Below, piece by piece: positions 7,396 to 17,965 of a stretch of 17,965 nucleotides of DNA (positions are counted from its first letter, which is position 1; every line of letters starts with the position of its first letter). The DNA comes from Candidatus Eiseniibacteriota bacterium (GTDB taxonomy: Bacteria > JAFGKV01). The notes under the pieces are model-generated. The model saw only the letters and a list, made by a program, of their open reading frames with translations, ran no database searches and had not been told where the DNA came from. Both the position numbers and the translations under genes were made by a program. The DNA is taken from NCBI GenBank assembly GCA_025453925.1, contig JALOPK010000025.1:1-17965 (forward strand), read 5' to 3'.

Positions 7396-8637
7396 TCATG
7401 GGGCGGCGACGACGCCGCCGGCGATCACGATTGACGCCAGTTGAACACCAAAATGGTACGCGATGTCCCGGTAGTCATCGCACTCCCAGATGACCAGATC
7501 GCCCCGCTTGCCCGGTTCCAAGCTGCCGACCTCGTCACCCAGCCTGAGCGCGTGGGCGGCGTTGATCGTCACACCCACCAGCGCCTGCTCGAGGCTCAGT
7601 CCGCCGTACAGGCATGCCAGGGTCACCATCAACGGCAGGTTCTCGCAGTAGCAGTTCCCGGGATTCAGATCAGACGCCACCGCCACCGGGAGCCCGATCT
7701 CCGCCATCAATCTCCCGGGTGCGTAGCGCGTCTTGGCCAGACCGAGGCAGGTGCCGGGGAGCATGACGGCAATGGCCCCCGAATCCCTCAACGCTTCCAG
7801 GTCGCCCCGGGTAGCGCACAGGAGATGGTCGGCGCTGCACACTCCCAGTTCCGCCCCGAGCCGGGTGCCCCCCGAGCTGGCGAGCTCGTCCGCATGGATC
7901 TTCAGGTCCATGCCGTGGGCTCGGGCGGTCTCGAGAATGCGGCGGCTCTCTTCCACCGAGAACGCTCCATGCTCGCAGAATACGTCGCAGAACCTGGCCA
8001 GCTCCTCGCGGGCGACCTGGGGTATCATCTCCTCCGTGACCTGCCTCACGAATCCCTCCCTGTCGTAACGCCACTCGGGAGGGATCGCATGGGCACCCAG
8101 GAAAGTCGGAACAACGCGTATGGGGACCCGGGAGCGCAGCTGCTGGATCAGCCGGAGACTTCGCACCTCCTGCTCTGTGGACAGCCCGTACCCACTCTTG
8201 ATTTCGCAGGTCGTGGTGCCGAAACGCAGCATGCGCCACAACCGTCCCGCGGTCTGCTCAAGGATATCCGCGTCCGGCGCCTCGCGGAGCATCCGTGCCG
8301 AGGCGCTGATGCCTCCTCCCTGCGCCATGATCTCCTCGTACGTGGATCCGCATACCCGCATGGCGAACTCGCCGGCCCGCGAACCGGCGAAGAGCGCATG
8401 GGTGTGACAGTCTACCAGACCGGGAGTCACGAGACGGCGGGCCGCATCGACCTCCGGGCTGTCAGGGAGGCCGGCCGGCACATCGGTGTCCCGGCCGACC
8501 CAGACGATCCTGCCCCGCTCCATGACCACCGCGCCGTCTGTGACGATTCCCAGGTCATGCGCAGCGGCGCCTGCCCGGGGACGCCAATCACCGGCGCACG
8601 TGACGAGAACCCCGGCATGACGCACGACAACGTTCAT
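7396..8637 (-). CDS. hutI: Imidazolonepropionase (EC 3.5.2.7)
   Basis: 413 residues, close to the usual length of HutI. It belongs to the amidohydrolase superfamily and hydrolyses 4-imidazolone-5-propanoate to N-formimino-glutamate, the third step of histidine degradation. Visible signatures: DCHTHALFAG (metal ligands H78 and H80), CEIKSGYGL (substrate-binding loop, about 144-152), KIHADE (H248, E251), SADHLL (H271) and ASDLNPGN (D323). The C-terminal NAAHALRLGDEVGSLEPGKRGDLVIW is the standard amidohydrolase ending. The start is ATG at 8637 with only a modest GGTGAT upstream. It lies 72 bp after hutU and 30 bp before the PHP gene, all on one strand. Nothing suggests loss of function. Confidence 0.97.
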   Translation of the reverse strand: MNVVVRHAGVLVTCAGDWRPRAGAAAHDLGIVTDGAVVMERGRIVWVGRDTDVPAGLPDSPEVDAARRLVTPGLVDCHTHALFAGSRAGEFAMRVCGSTYEEIMAQGGGISASARMLREAPDADILEQTAGRLWRMLRFGTTTCEIKSGYGLSTEQEVRSLRLIQQLRSRVPIRVVPTFLGAHAIPPEWRYDREGFVRQVTEEMIPQVAREELARFCDVFCEHGAFSVEESRRILETARAHGMDLKIHADELASSGGTRLGAELGVCSADHLLCATRGDLEALRDSGAIAVMLPGTCLGLAKTRYAPGRLMAEIGLPVAVASDLNPGNCYCENLPLMVTLACLYGGLSLEQALVGVTINAAHALRLGDEVGSLEPGKRGDLVIWECDDYRDIAYHFGVQLASIVIAGGVVAAP

Positions 8638-8709
8638 CGCAGATCACCCGAGGGAGCGGTCGGGCAACACCCGGTCAACGGAACAGGTCGGGGCATGATC
8701 CTCACCACC

Positions 8710-10359
<1,650 letters not shown>

Positions 10360-10405
10360 GGCGACCTCCTCTCTCGGGGCGTTTTGTCCTGGGGTGTTCT
10401 ACAGA

Positions 10406-10433
10406 TCTATATTGCGTCGGTGTCGGCAGTCAA
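10406..10433 (-). promoter_or_regulatory. Predicted sigma70-type promoter of the hutU operon
   Basis: Minus strand: -35 box TTGACT (10433-10428), 16-bp spacer, -10 box TATAGA (10411-10406). This gives a leader of about 40 bases before the hutU ATG. Confidence 0.5.
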
Positions 10434-10449
10434 GTGCCGCCCTCGGCAC
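10434..10449. promoter_or_regulatory. Inverted repeat abutting the hutU -35 box: possible operator
   Basis: GTGCCG-CCCT-CGGCAC, a 6-bp perfect inverted repeat with a 4-bp centre, directly next to the predicted -35 box of hutU and 16 bp upstream of the predicted -35 box of the divergent cyclase gene. It could bind a regulator of one or both. It does not match a HutC site that I know, and GC-rich short repeats also occur by chance. Confidence 0.35.
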
Positions 10450-10465
10450 AGCCGTGCAGAGGAAG

Positions 10466-10493
10466 TTGATGGCACATGGTCGCGATCTATCTT
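10466..10493 (+). promoter_or_regulatory. Predicted promoter of the cyclase gene
   Basis: TTGATG (10466-10471), 16-bp spacer, TATCTT (10488-10493); four of six matches in each box. The start point would be about 10500, just before the AGAGGAGG at 10517-10524. Confidence 0.38.
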
Positions 10494-10532
10494 GCAGTCG
10501 TGCAGTCCAGGGAGTCAGAGGAGGTTTCAGCG

Positions 10533-10589
10533 ATGTGTGTCTTCATGCCGTCGGCCATGGTCCTGCGGCGCCTGCGGCGACCGTGGTGA
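10533..10589 (+). CDS. Possible 18-codon leader ORF, or frameshifted true start of the cyclase
   Basis: ATG at 10533 has the best ribosome-binding site in this region (AGAGGAGG, 10517-10524, 8-bp spacing). It encodes only MCVFMPSAMVLRRLRRPW before TGA at 10587-10589. This frame is one base off the cyclase frame, which is open throughout. Two readings fit. It may be a short leader peptide coupled to the cyclase GTG at 10606, 16 bp downstream. Or a base may be lost or skipped near the TGA, so that ATG 10533 is the real cyclase start. Sequence alone cannot decide. Confidence 0.35.
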   Translation: MCVFMPSAMVLRRLRRPW

Positions 10590-10605
10590 GGCGCAGGCAC
10601 TGACC

Positions 10606-13600
10606 GTGCTCGATCTCGTCCCGCGGTTCATTCTCGACCAGCACCGGCAGCGCCGCGGCTCGGGTACGTTTCGCGCGACGTCCCTCTTTGTCGACTTGGT
10701 GGGCTTCACGCCTATGACCGAGTCTCTGATGGTGCACGGCACGGCAGGAGCCGAGCAGGTTTCGTCCATCGTCAATTCGGTGTTCGAGCCGGCGGTGCGC
10801 TCGACCTACGCCTGCGGCGGCTGGGTGGCGAAGTATGCGGGTGATGCCTTCGTCGCCCTGTTCCCCGACAACGCGAAGGAGCCGCGGCCAGAGGAGGCAG
10901 CCGGAGAGATCGCCGGGCGCCTGTCCGAGAGCAATACTCTCGAGACGCCCTATGGCGCCTTCACCATCGCGGCGAGGGTCGGCGTGGCCTGCGGCCGCGT
11001 CACCTGGGGCATCATTCCCGGCCGGCGCCGAAGCCTGTTCTTCTTCGCCGGCAGCGCCATCCAGCGTTCCATCCAGGCCCAGACCAGGTCCACCCCAGGC
11101 CACTACGTCGTTGACCGGCGCTACGGGGGCCCTGGCGTGCACCCTGCGCCTCCACGCATCCTTCCCCGGGCCGGGCGTGCCCACGGTGCCGGTGACAGGG
11201 TCCCTCATGGCGAGACGGGCGCGAAACTCCAGGCCCTCGTGCCGTTCGTGCCGCGATCGATACGCGACCTCGGCACAGCGGGGGAGTTCCGCGACGTTGC
11301 ATGCGTATTCATGGGGTTTCATGGCCTGTCGGGATCGGTGGACCGATACATGGCCGGAAGAGCGGCCGAAGTACTCAGTGTAGTGGCGGCCAAGGTGCAC
11401 CGGTTCGGGGGGTATCTTTCGGAGCTGGAATTTGGCGATAAGGGCGCGTTGGTCGTCGCCTATTTCGGAGCGCCTCAGGGCCTTGAGCGACCCATGCTGC
11501 ATGCCCTTGGCTGTGCCGCTGAGACACGGGACGCGCTACGCGGGATGACCCCCGTGCGGGCCGGCGTCACATTCGGGAGGGTCTATGCGGGGCTGGTCGG
11601 GAGCGCCCTCCGGGCCGAGTACAAGGCGGTGGGCCGAACGGTCAACCTCGCCGCGCGTCTCATGGCGTCGGCTCCGTGGGGCGTCGTGCTCCTCGATCGC
11701 GGTTCGTCCGCCAGTCTCGACGAATCGCTTCCCCTAGAGGATCGGGGGTCGGTTCGACTGAAGGGGGTCGAGCAGCCTGTCCCGGTGCTGGCGGTGACCG
11801 GAACGCGCCGGACGCGCCGGACGAAGGGGCCTGAGTCCCCGCTGGTGGGCCGCGAGCGCGAGGTGGCACGGTTGCGCGACATCCTTGCGCCCCTCGAGCG
11901 GGGATCCGGCCTGGGGATCGTCTACATAGACGGGCGGCCGGGAGTCGGCAAGAGTCGGCTGGTGAACGCGGTGAAAACGACGCTGTGTGCACGGTTGGCA
12001 TGGTTTTCCATGCCGTGTGACGGGGTCCTGCGGGAGAGCCTCAATCCTCTGCGGCGGTGGGCCAGAGCCTACTTCGGTGGGGCCGACGATCGGAGCCGCG
12101 ATGACAACGAACAGGCATTCGAGGTTCACTTCAGCGCTCTGCTCGCGGAAACCAGCGGCGCCGCACACCGCGAATTGGCGCGCACGAAATCGGTGCTGGG
12201 TGCGCTGGCAGGGCTTCACTGGCAGGGCTCCCTCTACGAACAGTTGGACGCCAAGGGACGATTCGCCAACACGGCCAGCGCCGTCAAATGCCTGCTGAGA
12301 TGTGAGGCCGCGCGGCGGCCTGTGGTGGTCGAACTGGAGGACTGCCACTGGATCGATCTCGACAGCGCCGAGATCCTCCGACAGGTTCTTCGTGGTCTCC
12401 GGCGTGACCCGGTGGCAGTTCTGGCGCCATGCCGCCCCGGCGATGACGGTTCGCCGTTCCGCCTCGAGTTGGGTGACGTCGCAACGGCTTCGCTCCAACT
12501 CCAGATGCTGGATGTCCACTCCTCTGCCCTGATTGCCGAAGCCCGTCTTGGCGCCCCACCCTCGCGAGACTTGGCGGGGTTCCTGTGGTCCAAGAGCGAG
12601 GGGAACCCGTTCCACCTGGAGCAACTCCTCGAACTCCTCACCGCGAAGGACGCGCTTCGCCAGGTACGAGGCAGGTTCCGTCTCGTGGCCGAGCCCCGGG
12701 AGCTTCCCAGTACGGTCTCCTCGCTGGTGGTGGCACGACTCGACCGGCTGCCCGCACGACTCCGGCGCGCGGCGAAAGTCGCCGCTGTGCTCGGCCGCGA
12801 GTTCAACGTGGAAGTGCTGGCCTCCGTGTTGGCCCAGCGAGCGGGATCGCTGGTGGACCTGGGAGTCCGGCACGGCCTTTGGACGAAAGGATCGTCCGGC
12901 CGTTGCGCCTTCCTCCATGCCCCCGTGCGGGATGCCTTGTATGAGATCCAGCTTGAGGCGCAACGAAGAGACCTCCACCGACGGGCCGGCGCCGCCCTCG
13001 AGACGATCCACGAGGGTATGCTCGAAAGCCAGTATGGCGCACTGGCTCATCATTTCGATGTGGGCGGCGATGCACCCCGCGCACGGCTCTACCTTGAGCG
13101 GGCGGCAATGTCCGCAGAGCAGTCGTACGCCAGTATCGACGCTCTTCGGTTCCTCGAGCGACTGAGGGTCTACGTGTCCGAGCAAAGGACACAGGTGGAG
13201 ATCTCCGTTCGCCGTGGTCGGTTGATGGACCGTGTCGGACGCTTCGACGAAGCCGCCTCTCTCCTGGAAGCCACGGTGAGGTCGGCCCGGGATCTGGGCG
13301 ATGAGCCGCTCCTCGGAAGGGCCCTGAATGCATTGGGCAATGTAAGAATACGACTGGGCGAGCTGGATGCCGCGGAGGCGTTGTTCGAAGAGGATTTGGC
13401 GATTTCGCGCCGCGGGGAGGAAAACGTCGGTATCAGTACTACGTTGGGCAACATCGGCAGGGTCTGCCGAACGAGAGGCGACTTCCCTCGCGCCATACGG
13501 TGTTACCGTGAGGCGCTCCGTTACGCCGCCAGGGCCAGGAGCGCGTCAGAGACGGCATACGCCGTGGGCAATCTGGGAACGGTGTTGTACTGCCTCGGTG

Positions 13601-14457
13601 ATCTGAGGCGGGCGGAGCGGTGCTTCGCACGCGCTGGTGTTCTGTGCAGGGAAATCGGGGATGCCAACGGCATCTCCCAGGCGGAAGGGAGCCTCGGCCT
13701 GGTGCATTTCCAGCGCGGTGAGTTCGAACCCGCCGCCCAACATTTCGGGAGGCAGCGCGAAATCGCGGAACGCATGGGTGACATGGTCTCCGTCGCGTTT
13801 GCCATCGGCAGCATGGGATTGGTGCACGAACACCACGGGAGTCTGAAGGACGCCCTCGAGTGCTACCGGCAGAAACTCGAACTCGCGGAAGAGTTGGGCC
13901 ATCAAAGCCGCGCAGGCATCGCCATGGCGGAGCTCGCCCGGGTGCACGTACGCCTGGCACAGTACGGTCAGGCACTAGAGCTTCTCGACAAGGCCATCGC
14001 CATTGTTCGGGCGCTTGGCGTGCGAGACTACCTGGCCCATTTCATGATTGACAAGGCAGTCGCCGTGGTAAGTCAGGGCGAGAAGCAGAGTTCCGAACGC
14101 CTCGGAGAGGTCGAGGGCCTCTGTGCCGAAGCGGTTGACATTGCGCAGGGCATCGGGTTGAAAAAGATCCCGCTGGTGGCGGCTGTGACAAGATCGCGAC
14201 TCCGGGCCCTTCAGGGTGACCGCAGCGGGGCTGTCGCGGGCCTTCTCGACCTGGCAGGCTCGTTCCCGGAGACGGAGGACCAGGCGAGAATCTATAGTGC
14301 GTTGGCTCGCGTCTCGAAGCGCCCCGACCACGTACGGGTGGCGATCGGCCTGTACGAGTCACTCTCCCGCGAAGACCCCGACACGGTCTACCGCGAAGAG
14401 AGAGAGGAACTGGCCGCGCTCATCACATCGGATACGCCCGGCCAAAGCCCCTGGTGA
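10606..14457 (+). CDS. Soluble-adenylyl-cyclase-like protein: two class III cyclase domains, P-loop NTPase, TPR repeats
   Basis: 1283 residues if started at GTG 10606 (TVLDLVPRFILDQ, the usual lead-in to this cyclase type). In-frame GTG 10537 is an alternative start. Domain C1 (about 20-165) has both metal aspartates, D30 (LFVDLVGFT) and D80 (KYAGDAFVALF), but its transition-state motif is degenerate (FAGSAIQRSIQAQ). Domain C2 (about 226-395) lacks the first metal Asp (CVFMGFHGL) but keeps the lysine K279 (FGDKGALVVAYFG) and the transition-state pair N347 and R351 (VGRTVNLAARL). One active site could therefore form between them, as in mammalian ADCY10. An ATPase domain follows: Walker A GRPGVGKS (443-450) and Walker B VVVELED (ending at 579). 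TPR repeats cover about 901-1139. No signal peptide or membrane span. The likely product is cAMP from ATP, but K340 sits where Asp or Thr normally helps select adenine. The gene is divergent from hutU. Confidence 0.88.
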   Translation: MLDLVPRFILDQHRQRRGSGTFRATSLFVDLVGFTPMTESLMVHGTAGAEQVSSIVNSVFEPAVRSTYACGGWVAKYAGDAFVALFPDNAKEPRPEEAAGEIAGRLSESNTLETPYGAFTIAARVGVACGRVTWGIIPGRRRSLFFFAGSAIQRSIQAQTRSTPGHYVVDRRYGGPGVHPAPPRILPRAGRAHGAGDRVPHGETGAKLQALVPFVPRSIRDLGTAGEFRDVACVFMGFHGLSGSVDRYMAGRAAEVLSVVAAKVHRFGGYLSELEFGDKGALVVAYFGAPQGLERPMLHALGCAAETRDALRGMTPVRAGVTFGRVYAGLVGSALRAEYKAVGRTVNLAARLMASAPWGVVLLDRGSSASLDESLPLEDRGSVRLKGVEQPVPVLAVTGTRRTRRTKGPESPLVGREREVARLRDILAPLERGSGLGIVYIDGRPGVGKSRLVNAVKTTLCARLAWFSMPCDGVLRESLNPLRRWARAYFGGADDRSRDDNEQAFEVHFSALLAETSGAAHRELARTKSVLGALAGLHWQGSLYEQLDAKGRFANTASAVKCLLRCEAARRPVVVELEDCHWIDLDSAEILRQVLRGLRRDPVAVLAPCRPGDDGSPFRLELGDVATASLQLQMLDVHSSALIAEARLGAPPSRDLAGFLWSKSEGNPFHLEQLLELLTAKDALRQVRGRFRLVAEPRELPSTVSSLVVARLDRLPARLRRAAKVAAVLGREFNVEVLASVLAQRAGSLVDLGVRHGLWTKGSSGRCAFLHAPVRDALYEIQLEAQRRDLHRRAGAALETIHEGMLESQYGALAHHFDVGGDAPRARLYLERAAMSAEQSYASIDALRFLERLRVYVSEQRTQVEISVRRGRLMDRVGRFDEAASLLEATVRSARDLGDEPLLGRALNALGNVRIRLGELDAAEALFEEDLAISRRGEENVGISTTLGNIGRVCRTRGDFPRAIRCYREALRYAARARSASETAYAVGNLGTVLYCLGDLRRAERCFARAGVLCREIGDANGISQAEGSLGLVHFQRGEFEPAAQHFGRQREIAERMGDMVSVAFAIGSMGLVHEHHGSLKDALECYRQKLELAEELGHQSRAGIAMAELARVHVRLAQYGQALELLDKAIAIVRALGVRDYLAHFMIDKAVAVVSQGEKQSSERLGEVEGLCAEAVDIAQGIGLKKIPLVAAVTRSRLRALQGDRSGAVAGLLDLAGSFPETEDQARIYSALARVSKRPDHVRVAIGLYESLSREDPDTVYREEREELAALITSDTPGQSPW

Positions 14458-16254: not shown

Positions 16255-16339
16255 GCACATGATGCGAGGTGAACGCATGAGCACTGAGTGGATCTCACCT
16301 GCCTACCCTCAACCGTCAACTTCCACAAGGAGAACCTCG

Positions 16340-17965
16340 ATGAGACAGATGACCTCGTTGGTGGTGTTTCTTGCGCTGCTCGGCAGCCTGGCGGGCGCCG
16401 AGATCCCCCAGATGATCAGCTACCAGGGCAAGGTGACGGATGCGTCAGGAACGCCTGTCGCTGACGGATCCTACACCATGCGGTTCCGGATCTATGATGC
16501 GGTGAGCGCGGGCACGCTGTTGTGGGACAGCGGAGCGCAGCCGGTGACCGTTGCGGGCGGGATCTTCAGCGTGTTGCTGGGAGAGAGCCCGCAGCCAGCG
16601 ATCATGCTCGATTTCAACGCGGACTACTGGTTGCAGGTGACCTTCAGCGGAGTGGATCAGGCGCCGAGGCAGCGTCTCGCGTCCACCGGCTATGCCTACA
16701 TGGCCAGCGGGTTGGTGGCGGGAACAGAGGTGAGCGGGGCCGTGACGACCGGGACGCTCTCGGCCCTGAAGGGAACGAACACCGCCACGGCAGGTCAAAA
16801 CTACGGCGGCGTGTTCACCGCTTCCTCCTCTTCGGGACGGGGCGTCTACGGTCTGGCGTCGGCCACCACGGGAGAGACATACGGGGGCCTGTTCGAAGCG
16901 CTATCGCCCACGGGCAGAGCCGTGGCCGGTGAATCCTACCACACCTCCGGCGACAACTACGGCGGCTACTTCCGGACCTGGTCAACGGCAGGCACGGGCG
17001 TGTACGGCGAGGCCACCGCCACGTCGGGCACCACCTGCGGTCTCTATGGCCGGAGCGCCTCGACCTCCGGCCGGGGCGTGTACGGTGGGGCCACTGCCAC
17101 GGGGGGCCATGCGTTAGGAGTCCTTGGTGAGAGCGCTTCCACGGGGGGCAGCGGTGTGCACGGCAACGCCTACGCCACATCAGGCTACAACTACGGGGTC
17201 TATGGGATCAGCTTTTCACCCCTCGGGCGGGGCGTGTGTGGCATCGCCGACTGCTATGGGGTCCTCGGCGTGACCCACTCAACGACCGGCTGTGGCGTGC
17301 GCGGCTGGGCCACTGACACATCTGGCACCGCCTACGGGGTCTATGGCCTGAGCGATTCCGGCGCCGGCCACGGTGTGTACGGCTATGCCTCCGCCACATC
17401 GGGGACTACCTACGGGGTCTACGGCGTCACTGCCTCCGGATCCGGCTACGGTGTGTACGGCTTGGCGAACGTCACGTCGGGGACCAGCTACGGGATCTGG
17501 GGCCAAAGCAACTCCAGCGCCGGCATCGGTGTTCACGGCACCTCCCCCGCAAAAGGCGTGTCCGGCGTCGCCGGAGCCCCGTCTGGCACGACATACGGGG
17601 TGTATGGCGAGAGCTCCTCCACCGCCGGCCGCGGTGTGCACGGCGAGGCCACCGCCACGTCGGGCACCACCTACGGGGGTCGCTTCGTGAGCTCCTCCAC
17701 CGCCGGCCTGGGGGTATATGGCGGGGCCACCGCCTCATCGGGCTATACCCAAGGGGGACACTTCGAAAGTGCTTCCACCGACGGCCACGGTGTGTATGCC
17801 TCCGCCGATGCCACTTCGGGCACCACCTACGGGGTCGAGGCCCGGAGCTACTCCACCGCAGGCTTCGGCGTGTTCGGCGTGGCCTATGCCACCTCCGGCA
17901 CCACCTACGGAGTCTATGGCGCCACCAATTCGCCCAGTGGTTTCGGCGGGGCCTTTTGGGGGAGG
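16340..17965 (+). CDS. Secreted repeat protein with 26-residue GVYG repeats (cut by right edge)
   Basis: The frame is open from ATG 16340 to the window end (542 codons, no stop), so the C-terminus is missing. AAGGAGA precedes the ATG; an in-frame ATG at 16277 has no such site. Residues 1-20 are a signal peptide (MRQMTSLVVFLALLGSLAGA). Residues about 21-125 form an N-terminal domain (MISYQGKVTDASGTPVADGS, GGIFSVLLGE, FNADYWLQV, APRQRLASTGYAYMAS), a type I recall from extracellular proteins of FCB and candidate phyla. From residue 155 on there are fifteen units, thirteen of them 26 residues. Each is built from a YGVYGxSxSTAGx half and a GVYGxAxATSGTT half. Gly, Ser, Thr, Ala and Tyr dominate, suggesting an extended beta structure such as a helix or fibre. 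It is probably surface-exposed or released. Adhesin and tail-fibre-like roles are possible, but none is shown. Confidence 0.8.
   Translation, partial: MRQMTSLVVFLALLGSLAGAEIPQMISYQGKVTDASGTPVADGSYTMRFRIYDAVSAGTLLWDSGAQPVTVAGGIFSVLLGESPQPAIMLDFNADYWLQVTFSGVDQAPRQRLASTGYAYMASGLVAGTEVSGAVTTGTLSALKGTNTATAGQNYGGVFTASSSSGRGVYGLASATTGETYGGLFEALSPTGRAVAGESYHTSGDNYGGYFRTWSTAGTGVYGEATATSGTTCGLYGRSASTSGRGVYGGATATGGHALGVLGESASTGGSGVHGNAYATSGYNYGVYGISFSPLGRGVCGIADCYGVLGVTHSTTGCGVRGWATDTSGTAYGVYGLSDSGAGHGVYGYASATSGTTYGVYGVTASGSGYGVYGLANVTSGTSYGIWGQSNSSAGIGVHGTSPAKGVSGVAGAPSGTTYGVYGESSSTAGRGVHGEATATSGTTYGGRFVSSSTAGLGVYGGATASSGYTQGGHFESASTDGHGVYASADATSGTTYGVEARSYSTAGFGVFGVAYATSGTTYGVYGATNSPSGFGGAFWGR
16802..17965 (+). 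repeat. 78-bp tandem coding repeats, fifteen units
   Basis: Unit starts: 16802, 16880, 16958, 17036, 17114, 17192, 17255, 17333, 17411, 17489, 17594, 17672, 17750, 17828 and 17906 (last cut by the edge). All are 78 bp except the unit at 17192 (63 bp) and the one at 17489 (105 bp); both changes are multiples of three and keep the frame. Recurrent core: GGCACCACCTACGGGGTCTA. Copies have drifted, so this is an old array rather than a fresh expansion. Confidence 0.9.

Follow-up and report, generated by a model that had tools for sequence, protein, structure and literature searches.

One gene in the window, by which is meant the whole 17,965-nucleotide stretch of DNA analysed here, very probably encodes a cytosolic class III cyclase with the layout of the human soluble adenylyl cyclase (sAC; ADCY10), in which two cyclase domains, C1 and C2, form a pseudo-heterodimer with one working site and are followed by a STAND switch and a TPR region that is the probable sensor. 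The gene is an ordinary bacterial relative of sAC, and its layout is not rare. Bacterial cyclases of this layout, including bicarbonate-activated ones, have already been described in three sources (PMC6660944, PMC11006738, PMC3918592). Literature of 2002-2004 presents bacterial sAC homologues with a P-loop NTPase domain (Roelofs and Van Haastert, 2002; Kobayashi, Buck and Levin, 2004; both as cited in PMC6660944), and the title of one of these papers speaks of a conserved domain structure of bicarbonate-regulated sAC in bacteria and eukaryotes. Since these papers describe the bacterial sAC layout, the main idea of an earlier interpretation of this DNA, made from the letters alone and referred to below as the sequence-only reading, is already in the literature. 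A search for literature on cyclases of Fermentibacteria found none.

The reading frame is open throughout from 10183 to 14457 on the forward strand, and the alignment of relatives begins at the position of the GTG codon at 10606 (MKQLIPRFI in L044, MLNIIPRHI in L046, and MKNLIPRFI in L048), which is taken as the start (Table 1). The span previously assigned to the cyclase, 10606-11810, covers the cyclase part only. Pfam recognises C2 (Guanylate_cyc, 37.7 bits against a cut-off of 21.9), an AAA_16 domain at residues 412-605, and TPRs, whereas C1 is too diverged for Pfam and was detected through its match to ADCY10. Together with matches to STAND folds, these assignments bear out the proposal that the protein follows the ADCY10 order of C1, C2, NTPase, and TPRs, and the same succession of AAA_16 and TPRs was seen in five of the six relatives that were scanned, the sixth (L049) lacking AAA_16 at the cut-off. 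The C2-NTPase-TPR part is also like that of the TOMM system kinase/cyclase fusion protein (TIGR03903, residues 254-1195), although the score of 154.3 bits lies far below the curated cut-off of 705.75. A possible frameshift within the linker between C1 and C2 was considered, since nothing in the relatives corresponds to the stretch beyond residue 169; none is needed, because the frame remains open and contains both domains. Positions 11115-11235 of this linker combine low model confidence with the lack of a counterpart in relatives.

Table 1. Features of the cyclase gene, with positions in the window.
Feature	Position	Strand	Basis
Whole gene, C1-C2-STAND NTPase-TPR, 1283 aa, GTG start	10606..14457	+	Start matches relatives L044, L046, L048
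C1 cyclase domain, residues 1-160	10606..11085	+	ADCY10 match, profile, AlphaFold2 model, fold search
D30, first metal Asp (= ADCY10 D47)	10693..10695	+	Asp in 107/107
K76, aligned with ADCY10 K95; ordinary KxxGD base lysine	10831..10833	+	
D80, second metal Asp (= ADCY10 D99)	10843..10845	+	Asp in 107/107
SAIQRSIQAQ, C1 without Asn/Arg pair; I156 at Arg176 position	11053..11082	+	
C1-C2 linker	11086..11280	+	Middle low-confidence in model, pLDDT 33-58 around residues 171-210
C2 cyclase domain, residues ~226-403	11281..11814	+	Pfam, ADCY10 match, model, fold search
G237 at C2 first-metal position (ADCY10 Asn)	11314..11316	+	Alignment
K279 in FGDKG (= ADCY10 K334)	11440..11442	+	Lys in 81/107
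K340 at ADCY10 Thr405 (adenine-contact) position	11623..11625	+	Lys only in window protein, L008, L015
N347 (= ADCY10 N412)	11644..11646	+	Asn in 104/107
R351 (= ADCY10 R416)	11656..11658	+	Arg in 106/107
STAND-type P-loop NTPase with helical, winged-helix-like arms (approximate ends)	11839..13110	+	AAA_16; predicted fold
Walker A, GRPGVGKS	11932..11955	+	
Walker B, VVVELEDCHW	12322..12351	+	
TPR array (approximate ends)	13210..14340	+	Pfam, model, fold search

The sequence alignment places a complete catalytic set across the dimer (D30, D80, K279, N347, and R351), each residue opposite its ADCY10 counterpart, so that the ADCY10-like division of labour between C1 and C2 put forward in the sequence-only reading holds. 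C1 has both metal aspartates at the numbers given there, with Q153 and Q157 in place of the Asn/Arg pair, and C2 has lost the first metal Asp to a glycine while retaining the other three residues as numbered. By analogy with sAC, C1 and C2 would pair as a pseudo-heterodimer with only one working site. There the two aspartates of C1 would hold two metal ions, and the Lys, Asn, and Arg of C2 would bind the base and stabilise the transition state; the second, pseudo-symmetric site has lost its residues. The same arrangement recurs through the 107 distinct C1-C2 sequences of the survey set (106 bacterial sequences and ADCY10): all five catalytic residues are present in 77 members, and, among the first 79 surveyed, the C2 first-metal Asp occurs in none and the C1 Asn/Arg pair in only one. 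These counts show the split active site to be the rule throughout the bacterial family and nothing special to the window gene. Among the exceptions in single motifs are two Candidatus Aegiribacteria loci (L046:1031-2176 and L047:6001-7146), in which the C2 DKG motif has been lost (FTASPP) and Asn and Arg are kept. The same C1/C2 division also holds in mammalian membrane cyclases, and it is therefore the sequence scores, and not the split site as such, that point to ADCY10.

In a single-sequence phmmer search human ADCY10 was the top PDB match (E 1e-20, a value far from chance), with two stretches spanning C1 and C2. The profile comparison that had been proposed was made with a family profile of 11 sequences, the window protein and ten bacterial relatives; it matched ADCY10 in one stretch (residues 19-400 against 39-466) at E 2e-60, followed by the single-domain cyclase CyaB at 7.7e-29. 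Residues 1-408, modelled with AlphaFold2 (pLDDT 82.8, pTM 0.83), superposed best on human sAC, with Z 39.4 over 380 residues at 2.8 A; across the human sAC structures the values ranged over Z 36.6-39.4, 2.8-3.5 A, and 380-397 residues, and the TM-score was about 0.8 with both domains taken together. The membrane cyclase AC9 (tmAC9) ranked lower (Z up to 35.1), which leaves ADCY10 the best solved match both by sequence and by predicted structure. Because the superposition extends over both domains together, the domains and their mutual arrangement match those of sAC. The paired fold expected of C1 and C2 was thus recovered in the model, and, judging from the superposition, the five catalytic residues should converge as they do in sAC. 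The window protein and ADCY10 (PDB 4clf, 4clp, 4oya) therefore have in common a C1-C2 core with an active site split alike and, after it, a P-loop region, predicted in ADCY10 to be of STAND type. They differ in that the window protein is about 25% identical, lacks Arg176, has Lys for Thr405, and comprises 1283 aa against the 187 kDa of full-length human sAC.

A special kinship between the window protein and ADCY10 was considered and set aside. A quick tree groups ADCY10, on a long branch, with two other members of the family (L077/L150), and in an AU test the alternative in which ADCY10 joins the window clade was not rejected (p 0.64), the tree held to that arrangement scoring even higher; the analysis gives no firm placement of ADCY10 among the bacterial proteins.

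One residue of the base-reading site departs from the sAC pattern. In human sAC, Thr405 contacts adenine (PMC12250328). Alignment with ADCY10 puts K340, within the EYKAVG motif (window 11617-11658), at this position, and among the 107 sequences Lys is found there only in the window protein, in a paralogue on contig C271 of the same genome (L008), and in a protein of the same genus (L015), which together form a clade with an SH-aLRT of 99. This replacement makes the product, and even activity, less sure. It is quite unlikely that this small clade reads its nucleotide in a manner unlike that of the rest of class III, perhaps using another base or making another product. The more specific proposal of an altered base choice (GTP, or relaxed), which draws on the replacement of Thr405 by Lys and on its confinement to one well-supported clade, also has a low probability, since the adenine-type lysine K279 is kept. 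Guanylyl cyclases carry Glu at the equivalent position. Cyclic AMP is the most likely product.

K340 would also suit a catalytically dead pseudo-cyclase whose C1-C2 pair only binds nucleotide or scaffolds a dimer for the STAND module; such a role finds parallels in relatives that lack the K334-equivalent residue, such as the two Aegiribacteria proteins, and in 6yii, a cyclase-like ATP-binding regulator present among the structural matches (Z 25.7). This explanation is nevertheless improbable, because every metal, base-lysine, and transition-state residue is kept in the window protein and likewise in its two closest relatives, which are only 42-43% identical to it. An active sAC-type cyclase remains the preferred reading.

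The region that follows the cyclase core was modelled over residues 401-965 with a pLDDT of 88.2. Its matches include a STAND-TPR protein (6mfv; Z 23.8 but 10.4 A, the parts being placed differently), MalT (8bob; Z 23.2, 4.7 A), and Apaf-1 (3sfz; Z 22.3, 5.0 A), and the predicted combination of NTPase, helical arms, and TPR fold is common to these STAND ATPases and the window protein. The effectors differ, being a cyclase pair in the window protein and a DNA-binding or CARD domain in STAND proteins of the MalT/Apaf-1 type. In the cyclase, the NTPase would act as a STAND switch and the TPRs as the probable sensor: a ligand or partner meeting the TPRs would promote nucleotide exchange in the STAND module, which would relieve a restraint on the cyclase core, and the resulting rise in cyclic nucleotide might be passed to effectors, for instance the cNMP-binding proteins that the genome encodes. 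Full-length human sAC is also predicted to contain a STAND domain, although no nucleotide or other regulator acting via its P-loop region has been found (PMC12802110), and gating by the STAND module here consequently rests on analogy.

Whether such a protein can inform on the origin of bicarbonate sensing was a main interest of the sequence-only reading. In human sAC, bicarbonate breaks a salt bridge between Arg176 and Asp99 within a site that includes Lys95 (PMC12250328). The alignment of K76 with K95 was correctly anticipated, as was the absence of an Arg176 equivalent, the aligned residue being I156. As a sign of bicarbonate binding, however, K76 fails, because it is the generic class III base lysine and varies across the family: Lys occupies the position in only 26 of the 107 members, being kept or lost freely in C1, and three further cyclases encoded by the window genome have a matching motif (KFIGD, KFMGD, and KFLGD). 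R154 was considered as a stand-in for Arg176 but not adopted, since it lies two residues before that position and, with this offset, would face another side of the helix. Across the 106 bacterial sequences, for the distant ones among which the alignment of this helix could be shifted by one or two residues, the Arg176 position holds Arg once (L092, whose C2 motif is degraded) and Lys twice (L146 and L148). No support was found for a human-type bicarbonate switch in the window protein, and the near absence of Arg176 from the sampled bacterial members suggests that this residue of the human switch is a later or lineage-specific addition. The idea that this particular protein informs on the origin of bicarbonate sensing is not supported, and by itself the protein provides no test of it.

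A missing Arg176 is in itself compatible with a response, since bacterial relatives from Chloroflexus, for which bicarbonate activation is reported (PMC11006738), and Stigmatella are reported to be bicarbonate-stimulated (PMC11006738, PMC3918592). Together with the position of K76, these relatives speak for a bacterial CO2/pH sensor in which bicarbonate, bound close to K76 at the degenerate second site, would activate the cyclase. Such regulation is judged unlikely in the present protein, as the switch residue of the human mechanism (PMC12250328) is an isoleucine and K76 is an ordinary base lysine that most of the family lacks; in addition, no beta carbonic anhydrase, the family sought, was found in the 82%-complete window genome.

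The survey bears out a wide distribution of the sAC layout among little-studied bacterial phyla, often with several paralogues in one genome. Full-length C1-C2 matches were counted in 29 of 290 diverse genomes, and 31 of 151 genomes from one other phylum gave matches, most of them full-length, with E no higher than 1e-50. The named relatives are found in WOR-3, Candidatus Aegiribacteria, Spirochaetaceae, and a Bacteroidota MAG. The same-genus protein L015, from a Candidatus Fermentibacteria MAG (G001), is identical to L044 (JAFGKV010000060.1). The window genome itself encodes three more proteins of this layout, on contigs C271, C325, and C175 (42, 34, and 33% identity, respectively). Beyond these four sAC-layout proteins, three further class III cyclases with an intact KxxGD motif lie on C90, C110, and C281, and this cyclase-rich genome also encodes five cNMP-binding domains. 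A WOR-3 MAG carries two sAC-layout cyclase genes in tandem (L048:3533-8706).

Two neighbouring features of the window may be mentioned. Downstream of the cyclase gene, an open frame starting at 16259, which has no Pfam match, contains, at 17302-17910, a unit of about 78 bases (26 codons) repeated in tandem. On the other side, divergent from the cyclase gene, genes for urocanase and an imidazolonepropionase-like amidohydrolase (7396-10359) apparently form a histidine-degradation cluster.
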